A stretch of 20,123 bases of DNA from a virus. Where the stretch lies: IMG/VR virus record IMGVR_UViG_3300020450_000131, positions 1-20,123 of that record, one strand, 5' to 3'. Under the pieces are notes generated by a model, which saw only the letters and a list, made by a program, of their open reading frames with translations, searched no databases and was not told the DNA's origin. Shown here piece after piece: positions 9,175 through 18,282 of this stretch. The translations under genes were made by a program, and so were the position numbers. Position 1 is the first letter of the stretch. Every line of letters begins with the position of its first letter.

Positions 9175-9909
9175 TTACCTAATAGATTGAGAAATTTTAG
9201 TAGCATACCGTAACGCATCAGCAAACGGCACTCCTGGGAAACTATCCGATAACATCGTAGCAAGTCGTCTTACACTAATCATAGGACGTTGCCTTAGTGC
9301 TTCCATAGCTGCACTTGTAAGTCTGGGAGACATTGATTGTGGCACCAACGCTGCCATAGACCCGCTGCCCATACCTGCTGCTGACTGGTACCCCACGGAT
9401 GCCGCTGCAAGTGATTTCAGAACGTCAAAACGTGCTTCCGCATTTACGGGATGTGCAGTAATCGCAACATTTAGGACTTTGGACTTCACGATACGTTCTT
9501 TATCACGCATCATTACTTGCCCTTCAACACTAAACCCTAACCGCCTAGACGACTGCGCTTTTTCTAATGCCATCGCCGTTTGGTAGATTTCTCGCGCTAA
9601 AGGTTTATGTAAGTACAAAACCCCTTCGATTCGCGTTGCAGGACTTCCGTTATGGGTAGTCGGCTCGATGGTATCGGGATGTCCTAAAACCGCGTCTGGT
9701 CCCTGTTTGTGTTCGTAATTGAACCATCCTTTAGACAAAGCGTAGGTCCAATCAATGCCGCCTTGTAGAACCTTGTCACCCTGCTGATCTTTGCCCTCAG
9801 TGGAAACGATACCTCCAATCCTAGCGGTCATAGGCTCCGCATCGTTGGCTTCGCTTTTGACAAGGCTAAAGGGCGTCCAAACTGAAAAATAATCTTGCGT
9901 CTTATCCAT
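9175..9909 (-). CDS. Prohead maturation protease (HK97 gp4-like)
   Basis: A 244-residue protein with ATG 9909 preceded by AAGGA and overlapping the upstream stop by 8 bases. The fold pattern matches HK97 gp4-like (herpesvirus assemblin-like) serine proteases. A strand with ARIGGIVSTEGKDQQGDKV is followed by WFNYEHKQGPDAVLGH, with the likely catalytic His67. Next comes RRLGFSVEGQV, with the likely nucleophile Ser127. The VAITAHPVNAEARF strand supplies a possible third residue, His153. The C-terminal 70 residues (SMAALVPQSMSPRLTSAA onwards) are an extension that may be removed or may interact with scaffold. Such proteases act inside the prohead, cleaving scaffold and capsid N-termini, then themselves. 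Placement between the MuF-like gene and scaffold supports the call. Confidence 0.82.
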   Translation of the reverse strand: MDKTQDYFSVWTPFSLVKSEANDAEPMTARIGGIVSTEGKDQQGDKVLQGGIDWTYALSKGWFNYEHKQGPDAVLGHPDTIEPTTHNGSPATRIEGVLYLHKPLAREIYQTAMALEKAQSSRRLGFSVEGQVMMRDKERIVKSKVLNVAITAHPVNAEARFDVLKSLAAASVGYQSAAGMGSGSMAALVPQSMSPRLTSAAMEALRQRPMISVRRLATMLSDSFPGVPFADALRYATKISQSIR

Positions 9910-10966
9910 CTTCTTTCCTTACCATTTTTCCGTCCTTTATCGTAAAACCAGGGGGGACAATTACGGTGTCACACCTACAATTAGGATGCAGGGGGAAAAT
10001 TGTCGGCTTCCAATCCCGCCGTTTCTTACCTACATTTGTACCATTCTCGAATAACTCTTGCACACTAAACACCACTGGATTTTGTGACGAACCAAACAGG
10101 TTTATACACTCGTTGCATGCTCCCGCTTCATGTATCCGTGCAATTTGTGTATCAGGACCATAATCCTCTACACCCGCAATTACCCTTGCGTCGTTGTATG
10201 CCGCTTGTAATTCCGTTCTCGCGATTCGTTCCCAATTATGTGCATAATCCCCTGTCCGTTCTGCTAAACGTCGTGCTAATGCCCTTGCGTCTTTCGCGCC
10301 TACAATTTCTTTAGCAGTTTCTTCACGAATAATATCTAGTTGCTCTGCTCTCTTGGCAGGATCTACCTCTTGCAAAATGGTTTCTTCATGCCAATCCTCC
10401 ATGACCATGTGTTCTAGGTCGGCACCCATTTCTTGACCTAGCCCTCTAGCAAACTCCCCTGCCCTTGTTACTGCCTGTTGATACCCGTATATCTCGTAGT
10501 CTCTTACGCCTTCGGGAATATCAGGTTTTAGGGTGTTCTCTGTCGATACAGGGGGAAGCGGTTTAGGTAACGCGCCTGGGAGTTTAATTTCAACTCTGCC
10601 TCCTGCAAATTCGGGTTCGGGGGTAGGTCGGTCTTTCAACTCGTTTACCCGCTCTGAAACAATGCCCGTCCATTGGGCAAGATCCCAAGACCGCATATCG
10701 TCAATTTTGTCTAAGTCTTCGTGATTTTCGGATATATGATGGTTTACGTGCATCAAAAATTCTAAGTAATCGCACTCTGCCCCTGGCACCATGACCTTAT
10801 TGAGTTCGTGGGGCTGTATAATCCCCTGATCTATTAAGTCTTGCATCCTTTGATTGCCAAGGTTTGCTGCGCTTTCTCCAAACATTTCTACTAGAAAAGC
10901 ATCATGGTGTGCCGTGCATAAATCCCGCACCATTCTACCTATAATGTCACGTCCCCGCCTACTCAT
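9902..10966 (-). CDS. Mu gpF-like head morphogenesis protein
   Basis: A 354-residue protein with ATG 10966, GAGGA five bases upstream, overlapping the preceding stop by 8 bases. The C-terminal third carries the MuF signature: a WERIARTELQAAYND helix near residue 247, a CNEC pair (Cys284, Cys287), and PLHPNCRCDTV with His327, Cys330 and Cys332. The Cys/His set probably binds metal. The first 200 residues are helical and acidic (HVNHHISENHEDLDKIDDM), without a recognised domain. MuF-like proteins (SPP1 gp7, Mu gpF) are minor head proteins associated with the portal and needed for correct DNA handling. Its place directly downstream of the portal is standard. No toxin domain is fused to the C-terminus, which ends soon after the MuF core. 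Confidence 0.9.
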   Translation of the reverse strand: MSRRGRDIIGRMVRDLCTAHHDAFLVEMFGESAANLGNQRMQDLIDQGIIQPHELNKVMVPGAECDYLEFLMHVNHHISENHEDLDKIDDMRSWDLAQWTGIVSERVNELKDRPTPEPEFAGGRVEIKLPGALPKPLPPVSTENTLKPDIPEGVRDYEIYGYQQAVTRAGEFARGLGQEMGADLEHMVMEDWHEETILQEVDPAKRAEQLDIIREETAKEIVGAKDARALARRLAERTGDYAHNWERIARTELQAAYNDARVIAGVEDYGPDTQIARIHEAGACNECINLFGSSQNPVVFSVQELFENGTNVGKKRRDWKPTIFPLHPNCRCDTVIVPPGFTIKDGKMVRKEDG

Positions 10967-11240
10967 TTAAGTCCTCTATTTTCTCTACAATATCGGACTT
11001 TAATTTACGTAGACGTTCCTCGTATAACGCCGAAAACATTTGGGTAAGGTCTTCAATAACCTGTACTTCCCCTATCCTGTCTTTATTTTTGGCTGTAAGG
11101 GACTTTTCTAGTCCCCCGCAACACGAAGATACCCCCGCCGCTTTTAACGCTGTCTGTAACGCCCATGCTGCCTTGTCACGTACCTTTTGTGCATGTTCCT
11201 CTAGCTCGCCTTCATAGCTTTCTTTGATTTCGAGTTTCAT
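10959..11240 (-). CDS. Small helical protein between portal and MuF genes
   Basis: A 93-residue protein whose ATG overlaps the portal stop as ATGA, with AGAGG just upstream. It is almost entirely helical and charged: an N-terminal helix (ESYEGELEEHAQKVRDKAAWALQ), a SSCCGGLEKS turn with two adjacent cysteines, and a C-terminal helix ending KSDIVEKIEDLNE. I do not recognise the family. The tight overlaps with both neighbours imply co-production with portal and MuF protein, so a minor head or portal-associated role is plausible but unproven. Confidence 0.6.
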   Translation of the reverse strand: MKLEIKESYEGELEEHAQKVRDKAAWALQTALKAAGVSSCCGGLEKSLTAKNKDRIGEVQVIEDLTQMFSALYEERLRKLKSDIVEKIEDLNE

Positions 11241-12832
11241 AGCACCTCTACACGAACGGTTTTGAACATTCCCTTTTCTAGTTCCTCTTCGGGTTCGGGT
11301 TCGGGTTCGGGTTCGGGTTCGGGTTCGGGTTCGGGTTCGGGTTCGGGTTCGGGTTCTGCTTCGTCCCCCGCTAAGAAAGCATCAATGTCAAAATCAGGGT
11401 CCGAGTCCGAATCTGGGTTCTCTGCCTCTTCGTCTTGTGCTTCCTGCTGCTGCACTGCGTTAATGTAAGTTTGATCCAAAATCATATCTGCCGCTTTAGT
11501 ATCCAACGGCTCTAAGTCCCAACGCGCACGTACTTCGTTAATCGTCATGTAGTGCTTAACTCGCTTTAACTCTTGTTCTAGCTTGTCTGCTTCGGACTTT
11601 ACGCTAAGACCCCCAAAGGTGATTTCAAAGTCTTCGTCAATCTTATGTATAACCCAACGATTCAGCCATGTCTGCTGCGCTCTTAGCAGGGGACGTAAGC
11701 CCTTTTCCTTAGACGCAATAATCCTTTGCTCTGGGTTCATGCTACCCATGCTGCTAGACTGCCCCTCGGCACCAAACACAAAACCCAATTCGGACGCATC
11801 CATTTGAAACATGGCGCATGCAATTTTAAGCAAGTAACTTGTCCATTGCTGATAGTCCTGCCAGTTTCGGTTTTCATTCATATTGATACTTTGCAGTTCT
11901 TCGTTTGCTTCTGGATCAAGCTGGATAATTGGGGTACGTCTACTGTTTTGCGCCCCCGATAGCATTGCATAAAACTCGCGTCGGAAACTGCGGAAAAGCT
12001 GCGGATTCATCTTGGACTTAACCGCTAGGATACCTGCGGTACTTAGTCCTACAGAATAATCGTTAGCCTTGTGCATATCTGCGTTTAGAATTGCGGTGAT
12101 AACTCGAATCAACTCTTCTAATTCAGGAAAGCCGTAACCGTTCGCTTTAATCCAAGACCGTGGACGACGGATACCAAAGCCCATTTCGTCTTGTTCAAAA
12201 GTGACCACTTTCTTCTTGTCGATGATCTGTATGTAGCCGTCGCGTTTCATGTCACGACGCCCCGCCTTTATCTCGGCTTCTGTCAAAGTAGCGCGTCGGA
12301 TGGTACTTGAATCAACGGGGATAATAGCAGACGGTTTGCCCCCTCGCGTTTTGATTATTTCAAAGGTCGCTTGGTCGTAGACTAGACTGTCTCGCGTGAT
12401 CATTCTCAGGAATGACTCGAAAGTTAAATTTCCCGTTACCCGTTCATCTCCGCACGTTTGGAGCCAATCGGATATGTCCCTTGCCTTTCGTTTTGCTGCG
12501 GGGGTCATTTCCTGATCGGGATCACGTAAACGAATTTGATACCCAAGGGAATACGGATCGGGTTGTGGAACCGCAAACTCGGCGACTTGGTTTACACGAG
12601 TGTTAATAATCGCGGCAATAACAGGCGTTCGCGCCATGTTCTGCAAGACTGTATAAGAAAGACCGTTGCCCCTCGTGTAGTAGTCCTCGGACATAAATTC
12701 GTCGGACAATGCCCCCATAGAAAAATCTTGGGGGCTTAACTCGTATGCCTGCGGTTTTGCGGGGGTTTTTGGTAAATCTAATGCTTTAGACAATTCCTCT
12801 TCACGCCCGAAAAATTTTGACCAAAAACCCAT
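11237..12832 (-). CDS. Portal protein
   Basis: A 531-residue protein with ATG 12832, GGGGG about 10 bases upstream, 6 bases after the giant gene's stop. Diagnostic segments include PVIAAIINTRVNQVAEFAVP near residue 70, a stretch reading ATFEIIKTRGGKPSAIIPVDSS (the portal wing), a helical MHKANDYSVGLSTAGILAVK region, and MNENRNWQDYQQWTSYLLKI with MDASELGF (crown/stem area). These match the HK97/SPP1-type portal pattern. The dodecameric portal is the DNA entry and exit channel and nucleates prohead assembly. The C-terminus is acidic and ends with eleven Pro-Glu dipeptides before ELEKGMFKTVRVEVL. Such a tail is unusual for a portal and would be disordered, probably inside the head or at its neck. 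Confidence 0.85.
   Translation of the reverse strand: MGFWSKFFGREEELSKALDLPKTPAKPQAYELSPQDFSMGALSDEFMSEDYYTRGNGLSYTVLQNMARTPVIAAIINTRVNQVAEFAVPQPDPYSLGYQIRLRDPDQEMTPAAKRKARDISDWLQTCGDERVTGNLTFESFLRMITRDSLVYDQATFEIIKTRGGKPSAIIPVDSSTIRRATLTEAEIKAGRRDMKRDGYIQIIDKKKVVTFEQDEMGFGIRRPRSWIKANGYGFPELEELIRVITAILNADMHKANDYSVGLSTAGILAVKSKMNPQLFRSFRREFYAMLSGAQNSRRTPIIQLDPEANEELQSINMNENRNWQDYQQWTSYLLKIACAMFQMDASELGFVFGAEGQSSSMGSMNPEQRIIASKEKGLRPLLRAQQTWLNRWVIHKIDEDFEITFGGLSVKSEADKLEQELKRVKHYMTINEVRARWDLEPLDTKAADMILDQTYINAVQQQEAQDEEAENPDSDSDPDFDIDAFLAGDEAEPEPEPEPEPEPEPEPEPEPEPEEELEKGMFKTVRVEVL
11288..11353 (-). repeat. Eleven tandem hexamer repeats encoding (Pro-Glu)x11 in the portal
   Basis: Eleven uninterrupted TTCGGG units on the plus strand (CCCGAA on the minus strand). 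The unit is two codons, so length changes stay in frame. Such perfect identity suggests recent slippage expansion. Confidence 0.95.
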
Positions 12833-12838
12833 TTGTGT

Positions 12839-15800
12839 CTAACCCCCAAAAACTTCGGTGTACCTAGCATCACCCGCAAGCATTGTCTTATTTGTTTTCT
12901 CAAACAACGCCTGGGCAAGCTGCCTGCCTGCGTCATTATCACTCGGCAAATGTACGCCTCGGTCAATACGGCTATCCGCTACCTGATTCGCTAATTTGTC
13001 TAGTTTACTCTGCATCTCAGGATAAATTGCGCCCAAAACCTTTGCTAAATACGCTGCCTGTGCCGTATGCCCACTAGGATATGATGGTGTTTGCGCCGAC
13101 TCTAAATAGTCGTAGGCAAACTCTATTCCGTGCCGTTCGGCTAGAACATTCGGACGCAACGCCCCAAAGTAGTCTTTATGTATCTTAATAGAAGGCACAA
13201 TACTACGACTGATACCCGCGATCATGTACATGCTGCTCGGTAATCCTGCGTCCATCAACACGCCGTTAAACAAAGCATCCATGTCGCTATCTAACACATC
13301 CTGCATCTGCTCTGGGCATTTTCTATTACGGTATTGATCGGACACCTTAGACAATTCCGCAACACGCTCCATTTCCGATGGTGGTGGCGGTATTAGAATA
13401 GCTAAGTCCTTGTTTCGCAAGGATTTCATGCCTTTTGAAAACGAGTCCCCCCAAACAAGTGCTTTGCCCATTTCCGTAGTAAACAAGACGTTCATTAGTC
13501 TACCCATTGCGTCTACAATTTTCTTGCGCTCTTCGCCGTGGGGGTAGGGTTGCGCGAATCGTGAACTATCTTGTTTCAGCGCACTTGCCGCACTTCTTCT
13601 CTTTTCCTTTACCTCATTTAGCACCTTTTTTGCTGCTACAACGTCTCGCCACTTTTCCCTTGCTTCTGGCGATTGTTTAGCTCGTTCCAAACGCGCATCC
13701 GAGTACATTCCCCATTTGTTTTTCTTTGCTTTGGGATCTCTCTCAATAATTTTGTCAAGTAGTTGTGCATAACTTGATCTAGCTGCATCCGACTGTGCAT
13801 ACGCAGCGTCGTACTCTGGCTTCATTCGTTCAAACAAAGCATCAACGTCTTTGTTTACATCCTCTTGGGCGCGAAGCGTAGGTAGTAGTGTGGCTAAGGG
13901 ACGATCTGTACCTTGAACAAGATAAGTGTTTTTCCTGCCGTTGCTTGCCAATGTGTCTTGAATGTAAGTCTCAAACGCTCGCGCAAACATTTCTTCGGAG
14001 GTTGACCAATACGGCATACCTTGTTCAAACATTATTGCGTCTCTGTAGAACTGACTGCTGCCTTCCGCAACGTCAGCAGCACCTTGTTTTACTGCGTTTT
14101 TGATAGCTATATTGGCTATTTGAACTTTGCTTTTTGCTTTTTTTATCTCGCTCTTAGCCCGTGAGAAATCACCAAAATTTGTTCTGGCTAATGCGTTAAG
14201 GTCTACACCTTCGTATTTCTTCTCAACCGCATCTAATTCGTCCTTTGCTTCCTTGTAGGATATTTTTAATTCGGCTAAATGCTCTTCTTGGGCAATAATA
14301 CTTTCGCCTTTTATTGCCACCATTACATCGTTTACGGCTTTTTTGATCTCAGGATTCGTTATATTTCTACTGGTACTAAGGTACTCGCCAGATTCTATCT
14401 TTGTGGCTAGAACATTGTCTAAGAAATGTCCCCATTCATGTGCTAACGAGCCGCCACCTGACATATTTGTAAGGTTTATGATTTTCGCTTTTGGTTCGTA
14501 ATGTGCCGCCGCTGCTCCCTCTTTGAATCCTCGCGCCCCTACGCCTCGCGCCCCTAAAGCTATCGCTAAAGGTTTGTCCGTTAGATGCCCCAATCCCATT
14601 TTATCAGGGGGTATATTTAACATATCTGCCAAGTCTAGCATCGAACTGTACGCCCACCCTAAATGTTGTTCCCTAGCACTATGCGCCATGTTCTTACCAA
14701 ACTGCACATTGCGAAGACCACACGCCTCTAAGAAATCTTGACTGTCTGCCTCTCCTACCGCTGTACCCCCTACACGCTCTAGGGCGTCTGTACGCGCTCT
14801 TGATAGTCTAAACACCTCGTCTTGTGCTTTTTTCTTAGCCGCAATCTGATCGTCTACCGTACCCCACCCTGTTTCTTCTAACGCTTTAGCTTCTCGTAGT
14901 TTCTTACGGAACCCGTCCGTAGGGTAGTTGCCTTTTGCTAAATTAAATAGCCCCTCGCCCAATGGGGATATAAGACGTACCGCTTCTTTCCTTCTCTCTT
15001 CATCTCTAAACCTGAAACGATAACCAACGTGCTTACGCTCACCGTCTACCTTTTCGTACACATACTCCGTGCCTAATACGGACATACTAGATCCTGGGTT
15101 TTCCCTTTGGATCTTTAAGGCGGCATCCATTTTATTCCGTGTTTCCTCTCTAAGAGAAACAGAATAATCTTCACTAGACTTTGTGTACGTTTCAGAATAA
15201 TGAACCGCTTGGGTGTAGTCTTTAAGCTCTTTAAGCAAAGTCATTCCGTCTTCGTAGGTACGAACATTGTCCAACGCTTTACTTATGAATACACACGACT
15301 TGTGAAACTGTTTGTTAAGAACTTCTCTTTGCGCTTCGGACCAAGACGTTGGTTTGTTCATATCAGATAAAGCAACGCCATCAGGGGACGACATATTACG
15401 TAACATGCGTTTCCAGCTATCAGAACGCCCACCAAAAGGGTGTTTAGATATTAAGTTGTAAATAGCGACTTTCATTGAATGCCCACCCGCTGTTACACCC
15501 GCTTCTCGATCTGCTTCCATACTAGGTCGCTTAAATAAACTTTGCTTTGTAAACGTGCCTGTATAGTCTACATTATCGCCAGTGCCATGCGCGTAAGTGC
15601 CTCCCGTAGCTCGAAACAAATCCGCTTCATCTGCGCGAGATCCGTAGACGTGTTCCCCTGCGTCTAGTATTTTCCTTTGAGGAACACTAGGCTCTGATAC
15701 CTGTTCCACCTGGGGCTTTTCCTCAGACGGTTCTACTGCTCTCTCTACTTCGGGAGTTTCTTCTACAGGGGGGTCTTCAAGCTCAGGTATTCGCTCCGAA

Positions 15801-17845
15801 TCGGGCATCGTATCAAAGTTGTCTTCGGACTCTGTTATAGGCTCCGCGTCGGGCATCGTATCAAAGTTGTTTGCATCCTCAGACGCTTTATCCGCTCTAG
15901 CTGCCCTTTGTTCGTAATATATACCCCCGCGTTCGTGTATACCTATACGGGCTATCTCATGGGCTTTTGCCGCACTTAAATGTGCTTGCTTTTCTTCGGA
16001 TGATCGAGCCTTATTCGCCTTGTCTTTATGTTCTTCAATCTTAGCGTTATGATTTTCGCGTCTTTGTAAGTTGGCTTTTTGCCTGGGGGTCTTCTCTCCC
16101 GATGCCAAGGGCATTTTGTCTTGCACATCAGCAAGTAGCTTTTGTACCCTTTCTTCTAGTTTTTGCTTTGAACGAGGAGAGTCATCAGTTATTAGCATAT
16201 TCGATAAAACATCAGCTATTTCCCCTAAACGACGTTCCCCTACAGACGCCAAGTTGCGTAGTCCTACACTACTGCCCTTACGCCTACGCATAATATTTAA
16301 CACTAATTTATACGCATCACGTAGGGGCTTATCCTTTAGCTCCAACTCTTCTGCCATCTTAAACGCGGATTCTATTGCGTTTCTACGAACGTCTACCGCT
16401 ACTTTTCTGCCTTTATCTGTAATTTTAAAAAAGGTTTCTCGTCCAACTTGGTTTCCGATAGCACTTCTAACGCTGCCTCGCTCCAAAAATCCTTGCTCTA
16501 CCAGTTTCAAGGTCATTTTTGTACCATAAGGACCATCGGGTAATTCGTCTTGATCGGACTGCACGTAACGGAATAACGCCGTTGCCGCTGCTAAACTCAG
16601 TCCCTCTTGTTTCAAAATCTCTTTGGTGCTTGGTCTAGGGGGATGCTCATACGCATCATAACGGCTTTTGGCGTCACTTACGGACTCAGGCATCGTATCA
16701 AAGTTATCTTCGGATTCTGCTACAGTCTTATCTATTCTTTGCTGCTCGAAAACATCCCTATCAGGGGTTACAGATAATATAAGTCCTCTGGGGTTATTTA
16801 TTGGGTTTAAGGCATCCGATAACTTGCTTATCCTTTGCCAGAACGTATTCATGTATGAATTACCTTCATACACATACATAGTCACTGAATGTTTTTCCGC
16901 ATAGTACGCCGCACTAACAAGGGATTCGTGCAAACTTCCGTTAGTTCTAGCGAATAGTTTTTTCTGGTTCTTTAAGATATTTGAAAAATCTTCATTCTTA
17001 ACAGGATCGCTTATCTCTTTACCTTGAGACTCAGGCTCCACGTCGGGCATTGTATCAAAGTTATCTTCGGATTCTGACTCTGCTACTTCGTCTACAAATT
17101 CGCGCCCCTTATCTGAGATAAGCCACCCTTTTACCGAAGTGAAAAACGCCAATGCTGCCGATTCTAATGCGTCCACCACTGCGGGGAACTCGATACCAAT
17201 TTGCCGCCGTGCCTCTTGATCGCGTGTTGCCGCCATCTTACCTAGCACTTCAAACGCCGCTTTATCTAAGGGAAAACCTTCGGGTACGTCTTCACGCTCG
17301 TGTAGATGGTCGCTGTCGGGTTTTTCTTGGGTATCAGGGGTAGACACCTTACCCGTGTCCATATCGACCGCTACAGGGGCTTTATCTGCCTCTTGTTCTT
17401 TCTTCTTGCCTTCTAGGAAAGCAATTCTGCGATCAATCAGCGCAAGCATCTGTCTAGGAGATAATTCTGTCTTGGTTTTATCTTGGTTTTGATACCCGTC
17501 CCTTGTTCTCTTCGACGGTTCACTTGTCCCCTGTTTCTTCTCTTTAGGGGTACGCACGTCTTCATCTACGTGTGCCGCGAAGATTGCGCGGAATTTCATT
17601 AGTGTAGAAAGGCTATTAGACTTTGAGATCAAAAGCCCAAAGTCCTTTGTGAGCAATCCTCGAAGCATCCCCCGCGACTTGGTACTAGGTTTGTCCTTTT
17701 TAGGACGAAACTTAAAGTCCCTCAAGATACTTAGAAGGCTACGTTTCTTCTCTGTTTGCCAAGGTATTTTGTGCTGTGGGTCTGCCCATTTGCCCCCGCG
17801 TGGACCAATGTACGGACCTCCCTTAACGAGATCTGAGAAACGCAT
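12839..17845 (-). CDS. Giant polyvalent-type protein: LPD1/HEWGH zincin-like region plus C-terminal PAP2 phosphatase
   Basis: A 1668-residue protein with ATG 17845 and GGAGG about 8 bases upstream. Residues 10-23 are GPYIGPRGGKWADP, a motif I associate with the N-termini of large phage proteins. Residues about 190-250 and 405-480 end in SDKGREF and TDKGRKV and look like winged-helix units. Residues about 1033-1145 match the large polyvalent protein-associated LPD1 pattern (FGARG-like, AAHYEPKAKIINLT), ending in HEWGH (His1136, Glu1137, His1140). EEMFARAFETY (1284-1294) supplies a possible third zinc ligand. The C-terminus carries a complete PAP2 signature: Lys1557/Arg1564-Pro, PSGH with His1593, and SR-x5-H-x3-D with Arg1626, His1632 and Asp1636. 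There is no signal peptide. Four SEDNFDTMP-type linkers separate regions. Polyvalent proteins are thought to enter the cell with phage DNA; delivery here is inferred. Confidence 0.85.
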   Translation of the reverse strand: MRFSDLVKGGPYIGPRGGKWADPQHKIPWQTEKKRSLLSILRDFKFRPKKDKPSTKSRGMLRGLLTKDFGLLISKSNSLSTLMKFRAIFAAHVDEDVRTPKEKKQGTSEPSKRTRDGYQNQDKTKTELSPRQMLALIDRRIAFLEGKKKEQEADKAPVAVDMDTGKVSTPDTQEKPDSDHLHEREDVPEGFPLDKAAFEVLGKMAATRDQEARRQIGIEFPAVVDALESAALAFFTSVKGWLISDKGREFVDEVAESESEDNFDTMPDVEPESQGKEISDPVKNEDFSNILKNQKKLFARTNGSLHESLVSAAYYAEKHSVTMYVYEGNSYMNTFWQRISKLSDALNPINNPRGLILSVTPDRDVFEQQRIDKTVAESEDNFDTMPESVSDAKSRYDAYEHPPRPSTKEILKQEGLSLAAATALFRYVQSDQDELPDGPYGTKMTLKLVEQGFLERGSVRSAIGNQVGRETFFKITDKGRKVAVDVRRNAIESAFKMAEELELKDKPLRDAYKLVLNIMRRRKGSSVGLRNLASVGERRLGEIADVLSNMLITDDSPRSKQKLEERVQKLLADVQDKMPLASGEKTPRQKANLQRRENHNAKIEEHKDKANKARSSEEKQAHLSAAKAHEIARIGIHERGGIYYEQRAARADKASEDANNFDTMPDAEPITESEDNFDTMPDSERIPELEDPPVEETPEVERAVEPSEEKPQVEQVSEPSVPQRKILDAGEHVYGSRADEADLFRATGGTYAHGTGDNVDYTGTFTKQSLFKRPSMEADREAGVTAGGHSMKVAIYNLISKHPFGGRSDSWKRMLRNMSSPDGVALSDMNKPTSWSEAQREVLNKQFHKSCVFISKALDNVRTYEDGMTLLKELKDYTQAVHYSETYTKSSEDYSVSLREETRNKMDAALKIQRENPGSSMSVLGTEYVYEKVDGERKHVGYRFRFRDEERRKEAVRLISPLGEGLFNLAKGNYPTDGFRKKLREAKALEETGWGTVDDQIAAKKKAQDEVFRLSRARTDALERVGGTAVGEADSQDFLEACGLRNVQFGKNMAHSAREQHLGWAYSSMLDLADMLNIPPDKMGLGHLTDKPLAIALGARGVGARGFKEGAAAAHYEPKAKIINLTNMSGGGSLAHEWGHFLDNVLATKIESGEYLSTSRNITNPEIKKAVNDVMVAIKGESIIAQEEHLAELKISYKEAKDELDAVEKKYEGVDLNALARTNFGDFSRAKSEIKKAKSKVQIANIAIKNAVKQGAADVAEGSSQFYRDAIMFEQGMPYWSTSEEMFARAFETYIQDTLASNGRKNTYLVQGTDRPLATLLPTLRAQEDVNKDVDALFERMKPEYDAAYAQSDAARSSYAQLLDKIIERDPKAKKNKWGMYSDARLERAKQSPEAREKWRDVVAAKKVLNEVKEKRRSAASALKQDSSRFAQPYPHGEERKKIVDAMGRLMNVLFTTEMGKALVWGDSFSKGMKSLRNKDLAILIPPPPSEMERVAELSKVSDQYRNRKCPEQMQDVLDSDMDALFNGVLMDAGLPSSMYMIAGISRSIVPSIKIHKDYFGALRPNVLAERHGIEFAYDYLESAQTPSYPSGHTAQAAYLAKVLGAIYPEMQSKLDKLANQVADSRIDRGVHLPSDNDAGRQLAQALFEKTNKTMLAGDARYTEVFGG
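15806..17067 (-). repeat. Four dispersed SEDNFDTMP-type repeats in the giant protein
   Basis: The segment (S)EDNFDTMP recurs with its Met at residues 266, 385, 664 and 680 (bases 17048-17050, 16691-16693, 15854-15856 and 15806-15808). One copy is SEDANNFDTMP. Each is in an acidic, probably disordered linker. The DNA copies are nearly identical (GCATCGTATCAAAGTT on the plus strand with small changes). Confidence 0.85.
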
Positions 17846-17868
17846 TATGTTGCCTCCGTAGGACGCTA

Positions 17869-18282
17869 TTAGTTATTTAGCCATCCCATAAGAGCATCAC
17901 GCCCACGGGTTGCAGGTGCTTCGGCTACAAGTGCTTCGGCTACAAGTGCTTCGGCTTCAACGACGATAGCCTTTGACATTCCAGGCAATTCCATTTGGTC
18001 TTTGCTAACCTCATCTTCATCGCTGTCTTCGTCCATCATCTTACGCATCATCTTGTACATCATCTTGGACATTGCAGAATCCTCGTCTTCCATCATCTTG
18101 GATAGACCCTGCTCCATCATCTTGTACATCATCTTAGATAATTCGTCTTCGGATGCTTCGGCTTCAACATCAGCCATATCGCCTTTTTGAATGCCGTAAA
18201 AATCAAGTTGATTAGTATCCGCACTCGCCATCTGCGCTTTTTCAAAGTCGTTCAACTCTCGCGCTTCTTCTTTCTTTAGCAT
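17869..18282 (-). CDS. Small acidic methionine-rich protein
   Basis: A 137-residue protein with ATG 18282 and AAAGGGG just upstream, ending 23 bases before the giant gene. The N-terminal 55 residues are acidic and helical. Residues about 46-85 contain repeated SKMMYKMM and SKMMEDEDS units: many Met-Met pairs alternating with Asp/Glu clusters. The C-terminus has AEALV repeats from a 15-base DNA unit (17916-17960), then RDALMGWLNN. I do not recognise the family. Met-rich amphipathic helices are flexible, hydrophobic binders or metal (copper) ligands in other proteins, but here neither is shown. Position directly before the giant gene in the same direction suggests the two are co-transcribed and perhaps functionally linked, for example as a chaperone or packaging partner. 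Confidence 0.7.
   Translation of the reverse strand: MLKKEEARELNDFEKAQMASADTNQLDFYGIQKGDMADVEAEASEDELSKMMYKMMEQGLSKMMEDEDSAMSKMMYKMMRKMMDEDSDEDEVSKDQMELPGMSKAIVVEAEALVAEALVAEAPATRGRDALMGWLNN
17916..17960 (-). repeat. Three 15-bp repeats encoding AEALV in the Met-rich protein
   Basis: Two identical units (GTGCTTCGGCTACAA on the plus strand) and a third with one change, in tandem. The unit is five codons and preserves frame. Confidence 0.85.

Follow-up and report, generated by a model that had tools for sequence, protein, structure and literature searches.

The window, that is, the whole stretch of DNA analysed here, is a 20,123-base IMG/VR virus record, and its source is an uncultured tailed phage. 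On the minus strand, its genes run in the order of a long repetitive open reading frame (ORF), a small ORF, a giant gene, the portal gene, another small ORF, a MuF-type minor head protein, a maturation protease and the capsid protein, with the tail sheath gene further on. The giant gene starts with an ATG at 17845 and encodes 1,668 residues with zero internal stop codons, while only 6 bases separate its stop codon from the portal start. A GGGGG run in the last codons of the giant gene (FGG-stop) is placed as the Shine-Dalgarno sequence of the portal, and sequence reading finds the same arrangement in the related contigs L160 and L002. The initial annotation of this DNA had described a single 1,668-residue chain encoded directly before the portal gene, without giving its minus-strand orientation, and both statements hold, the chain being uninterrupted and repeated in the second contig L002, and the portal being recognised by both Pfam and PHROG profiles. 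Among cultured phages, the portal comes closest to those of SPO1-like phages and further myophages infecting Gram-positive hosts, with an identity of just ~34%. The portal C-terminus (window 11285-11362) ends in a long Glu-Pro repeat tract. The features of the locus are as follows.

17869-18282, minus strand: small ORF upstream of the giant gene, with homologues in L160, L177 and L291, syntenic in sister phages
12839-17845, minus strand: giant polyvalent-type gene, 1,668 residues, with Shine-Dalgarno sequence GGAGG at 17853-17857
17756-17836, minus strand: N-terminal tag, residues 4-30, SDLVKGGPYIGPRGGKWADPQHKIPWQ, recurring at ~70-90% identity in other viral loci
17045-17074, minus strand: acidic linker repeat 1, ESEDNFDTMP, residues 258-267, DNA near-identical to the other copies
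16688-16717, minus strand: acidic linker repeat 2, ESEDNFDTMP, residues 377-386, DNA near-identical to the other copies
15803-15883, minus strand: acidic linker repeats 3 and 4, SEDANNFDTMP...ESEDNFDTMP, residues 655-681, both retained in L002
14405-14812, minus strand: zincin-like MPTase core, residues 1012-1147 (H1136, E1137, H1140, D1143, upstream AAAHYEP), from polyvalent-type PHROGs, invariant columns in 12 relatives and a model
13820-14023, minus strand: LPD1, residues 1275-1342, including EEMFARAFE at 1284-1292 (Pfam PF18796)
12842-13438, minus strand: soluble PAP2 module, class A acid phosphatase-like, residues 1470-1668, from Pfam, PDB sequence matches and an AF2 model
13151-13177, minus strand: PAP2 motif 1, K1557-x6-R1564-P1565, invariant in 60 viral sequences
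13067-13078, minus strand: PAP2 motif 2, PSGH, residues 1590-1593, invariant in the same 60
12938-12973, minus strand: PAP2 motif 3, SR-x5-H-x3-D, residues 1625-1636, invariant in the same 60
12843-12847, minus strand: GGGGG, placed as the portal Shine-Dalgarno sequence by sequence reading
11237-12832, minus strand: portal gene directly downstream of the giant gene (Pfam PF04860, E 1.6e-15; PHROG portal, E 7e-41)
9902-10966, minus strand: MuF-type minor head protein (PHROG 115, E 1.7e-11)

Peptidase half and phosphatase module of the giant protein

Disparate domains, namely an MPTase/LPD1 region and PAP2, are joined here in one long chain, and the gene lies among virion genes, since portal, MuF, maturation protease and capsid come after it. 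The best reading is that of a phage polyvalent protein expressed together with the portal, and this assignment, already made in the initial annotation, is upheld by the Pfam match to LPD1 (E 6.9e-20) and by polyvalent-type PHROGs, four of which, all of huge phage proteins, match the zincin core with E down to 6e-29. Both motifs reported earlier are intact, HEWGH at residues 1136-1140, where it continues as HEWGHFLD, and EEMFARAFE downstream. Across 12 sequences AAAHYEP, HE-x-x-H and E-x-FAR-x-FE are conserved, both Glu residues of the last being invariant, and the Asp after HExxH is nearly so. A widely distributed phage-type MPTase has a conserved His before a helix, an Asp three residues past HExxH and a Glu ligand from a later helix (PMC5512222). 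The window protein has the same residue pattern, and therefore the third zinc ligand of one single peptidase most likely comes from LPD1. Thus, the LPD1/HEWGH region of the initial annotation stands as to its motifs and its Pfam domain, but LPD1 is not separate from the zincin, as it holds the Glu expected to complete the site. The AF2 model of the zincin has a pLDDT of 81. Foldseek ranks a solved M34-type gluzincin first, but with a weak match (E 0.016, with Z 9.4 over 181 residues), and generic helix bundles score just as high in Z, the list being dominated by the long helical insert of the zincin. As this fold match is weak, the zincin claim rests on motif and family evidence.

The zincin-LPD1 half is an already known phage polyvalent-protein peptidase. 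By analogy with the proposal of Iyer et al. that a zincin processes P1 DdrB before packaging (PMC5512222), it is best read as a processing peptidase, and we put even chances on processing being its main activity. Four ESEDNFDTMP-type linkers lie at apparent module boundaries of the chain and, among the compared viral loci, occur besides the window only in L002; they are candidate cut sites for the zincin. A stretch resembling a winged-helix DNA-binding domain by eye (GPYGTKMTLKLVEQGFLE...TFFKITDKGRKVAV) lies at window 16346-16603 (residues 415-500), where Pfam gives no match. The zincin-LPD1 module finishes at YPHGEER, as it does in the contig L003, which continues differently, and PAP2 starts ~30 residues on.

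The initial annotation had read a complete PAP2 set (K-x6-RP, PSGH, SR-x5-H-x3-D) in a soluble C-terminal module, and had suggested HMM searches of both regions as well as structure prediction as checks. Pfam places PAP2 at residues 1553-1642 (E 1.1e-8), its 35.3 bits exceeding the cut-off of 27.2. All motifs are found at the expected spacing, with inter-motif gaps of 24 and 31 residues, satisfying the published class A rule K-x6-RP-x12-54-PSGH-x31-54-SR-x5-H-x3-D (PMC12356135). Across 60 aligned viral PAP2 rows, down to ~25% identity, one Asp and the full catalytic set K, R, P, Y, PSGH, R, H and D are invariant. PDB sequence matches of the module are class A acid phosphatases (E 7e-10), and its AF2 model (pLDDT 88) has a class A fold, matching these enzymes with Foldseek E 3e-6, Z 17.2 and rmsd 3.4 over 181 residues; it also aligns with PgpB-type and LpxE structures at Z 10-15. 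In agreement with a soluble enzyme, no membrane helix was found in the PAP2 region, where the 19-residue Kyte-Doolittle maximum is ~1.06. A comparison of the window with L002 gives dN/dS of ~0.09 for PAP2, and thus the module is under purifying selection. As judged from its motifs and model, it is a class A-type enzyme, and very probably an active phosphatase. A class A enzyme is at least 100 times as fast on 3'-AMP and 5'-AMP as on pNPP (PMC12356135), and for this reason nucleotides or nucleotide signals rank first among the possible targets of the window PAP2. By this analogy, we tentatively suggest that it may act on a nucleotide-type substrate.

Relatives of the locus, the phosphatase and the N-terminal tag

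The independent contig L002 has the same fusion, with 72% identity over about 1,200-1,250 residues (its N-terminus is absent from the contig), an adjoining portal and a low zincin dN in comparison with the window. In the syntenic sisters L177/L290, L160 and L291, whose portals are 77-85% identical to that of the window, the same slot holds a solo PAP2 only, of 219-228 residues and 68-73% identity, which starts directly at the domain and, on sequence inspection, has no signal-peptide-like start. Thus, the phosphatase is the constant element of the slot, and the 1,450-residue polyvalent part is the variable one. In the PAP2 tree the fused pair and the solo trio are sister groups, so that the direction of fusion is unreadable from it. 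PAP2 as a standard partner of zincin/LPD1 was rejected, as only L002 of 80 retained zincin loci has it, and a database search turned up no cultured phage in which this PAP2 neighbours a zincin.

Pattern and profile scans found relatives of PAP2 encoded in at least 405 viral loci, and the idea of a one-off was therefore rejected. Among 149 distinct PAP2 ORFs examined most are solo, and at least about 24 carry >160 extra residues. Partners identified by Pfam include topoisomerase IB (L181), DUF192 with a poly(A)-polymerase head, a nucleotidyltransferase (L103), and Fic (L205 and L095); Fic is also present in the PAP2 proteins of L193, L150, L194 and L186 by its HPFxxGNGR motif. These six PAP2-Fic fusions are proteins of ~420 residues. 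In L199 (931-3657), the PAP2 ORF sits between the portal and the major head protein, and in L154 (2042-5413), it lies just before the major head protein, its own downstream part weakly matching a head PHROG. A 220-residue segment in each of the two, with GIASST...D-x-x-G, GQSIGG and AIT-x-x-P-x-N-x-D, is collinear with the maturation protease profile of the window in a weak match (hhalign E 0.0014, probability 17.6%); when the L199 segment was compared with the window protease by BLAST, the result was uninformative (E 0.31). In L345 (5955-8240), PAP2 is fused to a capsid-assembly ORF with a scaffold-like tail. PAP2 thus physically belongs to capsid-assembly ORFs in other lineages. Among the 92 scanned neighbours of solo viral PAP2 genes, RusA/Holliday resolvases and HNH nucleases are the most frequent of the named matches, and a 5'-deoxyribonucleotidase occurs once. 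Given these neighbours, a separate, probably metabolic use of solo viral PAP2 exists, and a virion role for all viral PAP2 was rejected. The initial annotation had considered a C-terminal PAP2 an unusual combination; unusual it is, since the main text of PMC5512222 contains neither "PAP2" nor "phosphatase", but PAP2 itself recurs in phages, usually solo, and stands alone at the sister locus.

Several further architectures were observed. L298 (6963-9911) encodes a 983-residue chain in which an acetyltransferase-like N-terminus and PAP2 are followed by a different HExxH region (HELVH); PAP2 may be combined with a metallopeptidase here as well. L368, L103 and L123 contain arrays of unrelated ~200-residue proteins with common N-terminal tags, M-K-x-LR-x-YIR-x-x-L-x-E or MKITKRQLRRIIKEE; some PAP2 proteins bear one of these tags, which are possibly another head-targeting tag. 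In L142 (2113-3651, minus strand), the PAP2 protein begins MAIKSYDEFLNEGKP, recalling T4-type capsid-targeting starts, and the next ORF opens alike.

The N-terminus of the giant protein carries a 27-residue tag, (K)GGPYIGPRGGKWADPQHKIPW, with the consensus GGP[FY]IGPRGGKWAD[AP]xHTIPWKE. Among the compared viral loci (L003-L012 and L210-L289 beyond the window), it occurs in 131 distinct contexts in 127 ORFs, with 1-4 copies per ORF; the tag loci overlap and are related, so that counts of them are not independent. Positions outside the search pattern are also conserved (G 86%, P 79%, H 95%, W 94%). Most copies are internal rather than N-terminal, and the tag is repeated between unrelated modules, in chains with zeta toxin, topoisomerase IB and others. 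Of 92 tag loci, again not independent, 77 hold in the same stretch a homologue of the window portal, MuF, protease or capsid, and 22 tag ORFs match MuF within the same chain; among PAP2 loci, such matches are confined to the window's own relatives. Relatives of the window MuF protein carry the tag and further modules. No copy was seen in the solo-PAP2 sisters, nor in L002, whose N-terminus is missing. There was no Pfam match at the tag positions and no tblastn match in cultured phages, the latter a weak negative as the 31-residue glycine-rich query may be filtered, and the tag is not described in the open-licence papers searched. As expected of a capsid-targeting signal, it is a short sequence common to otherwise unrelated putative head cargo. 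Such recurrence suggests a tag for loading or processing and, should this hold, the phage proteins that are carried in virions could be predicted from it.

Proposed role of the giant protein and its alternatives

In the mechanism that we propose, the giant protein would be made late with the portal, enter the head by means of its N-terminal GPRGGKW tag and be injected along with the DNA, and the zincin-LPD1 peptidase would cut its own chain or a partner, freeing modules before or after injection. By family analogy, the C-terminal PAP2 would hydrolyse phosphomonoesters via a phospho-histidine at H1632, with H1593 as the acid and K1557, R1564 and R1626 holding the phosphate, and its target early in infection would be small cytoplasmic phosphorylated molecules, for example nucleotides. 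Delivery in the virion, raised as a possibility in the initial annotation, gains support from the position beside the portal and expression with it, from the tag common to MuF-borne modules and from the repeated fusion of PAP2 to head ORFs. Packaging, cleavage, timing and the nucleotide substrate are steps that we infer; we consider the giant protein to be probably packaged in the virion, and for the explanation as a whole, a packaged polyvalent protein with peptidase processing and a phosphatase payload for nucleotide-like molecules, the balance is about level. The replication and nuclease neighbours of solo viral PAP2 genes count against PAP2 as a general virion protein.

These same neighbours would suit a protein that stays unpackaged in the late cytoplasm, with PAP2 as a nucleotide or phosphate salvage enzyme, an auxiliary metabolic gene lying near the portal by chance. 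Such an enzyme would also agree with the good use of AMP by class A enzymes (PMC12356135) and with the retention of PAP2 without tag or zincin in sister phages, but the coupling or fusion of PAP2 to head genes in this lineage and in L199, L154 and L345 is hard to square with metabolism, and the giant chain has a tag and a polyvalent peptidase too; we regard salvage as unlikely, yet as a serious reading. That stop-codon loss or an assembly chimera merely joined neighbouring genes might be surmised from the separate PAP2 gene at the same site in the sisters. This accidental origin is largely refuted by L002, where the same chain is found with the identity and the low PAP2 dN/dS and zincin dN given above, and it was rejected, its probability being close to nil.

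The PAP2 superfamily includes lipid phosphatases, and the enzyme could dephosphorylate envelope lipids, undecaprenyl among them, during entry, or alter the envelope for superinfection control. The alignments with PgpB-type and LpxE structures would be in keeping with this, but membrane helices are absent, the module comes closest to the soluble class A acid phosphatases in both fold and sequence, and the solo sister forms lack a signal-peptide-like start. A membrane lipid phosphatase is thus disfavoured, and we judge a lipid target improbable. PAP2 or the zincin might, finally, be a processing or structural factor of head assembly that does not act in the infected cell. We know of no head-assembly step requiring a phosphatase, and many related head modules do without PAP2, which is present in 0 of the other 79 retained zincin loci. 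The fusion of PAP2 to scaffold- and protease-like ORFs speaks for an assembly factor, as does the proposed zincin processing of P1 DdrB (PMC5512222), but we give this account little weight.

Virion delivery of the phosphatase, which we prefer, would mean that phages bring a finished phosphatase into the cell, through which nucleotides, alarmones or nucleotide defence signals could be controlled early on. As a soluble, assayable enzyme, it would also offer an activity-based handle on the largely untested polyvalent proteins. A broader proposal is speculative and, in our estimation, doubtful: soluble class A-type PAP2 would be a general, hitherto unrecognised class of virion-delivered effectors, moved between carriers (zincin/LPD1 giants, prohead-protease/scaffold polyproteins, Fic/topoisomerase fusions) and dephosphorylating nucleotides or phosphorylated signals at the start of infection, and GPRGGKW would define a tag family of its own, new to phages, that serves many such effectors in head loading or in processing.

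Comparison with known systems

The class A non-specific acid phosphatases (PhoN 2akc/2a96, E. blattae 1d2t, P. aeruginosa 7f17) share with the window module the full motifs, a PPPP N-terminal element and the all-helical fold (Z 16-17, 22-25% identity). They are free enzymes, for which secretion by a signal peptide is usual, if not strictly defining, whereas the window PAP2 closes a phage chain that begins with the tag and apparently lacks a signal peptide. Like the polyvalent proteins of Iyer et al. (PMC5512222), the giant protein is a huge multidomain chain encoded by virion genes, with an HExxH zincin that has an upstream His and an Asp and is followed by LPD1; unlike them, it ends in PAP2, carries the GPRGGKW tag and has linkers repeated at the DNA level. 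The zincin-LPD1 half is therefore known, and what is new is the phosphatase payload and its recurrence, which the sources searched do not record; in the open-licence literature searched, the combination of PAP2 with polyvalent proteins, virions or prohead protease is unreported. Effector modules are likewise placed on head proteins in the MuF polymorphic toxins of temperate phages, described in PMC5576092 with no mention of PAP2 or phosphatase in its main text, and the tag occurs in MuF chains of related phages, but the carrier in the window is a separate giant gene before the portal.

In P1, DarB is a 250-kDa virion protein that adjoins the portal in the P1 ORF list and whose first 30 residues suffice for packaging (PMC9024508), while DdrB has a C-terminal MPTase (PMC5512222). 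DarB is an antirestriction protein of other content, and the likeness to its signal is one of position. The window gene, like that of DarB, encodes a giant protein beside the portal, and the N-terminal packaging signal of DarB thus offers a possible mechanism for the tag.
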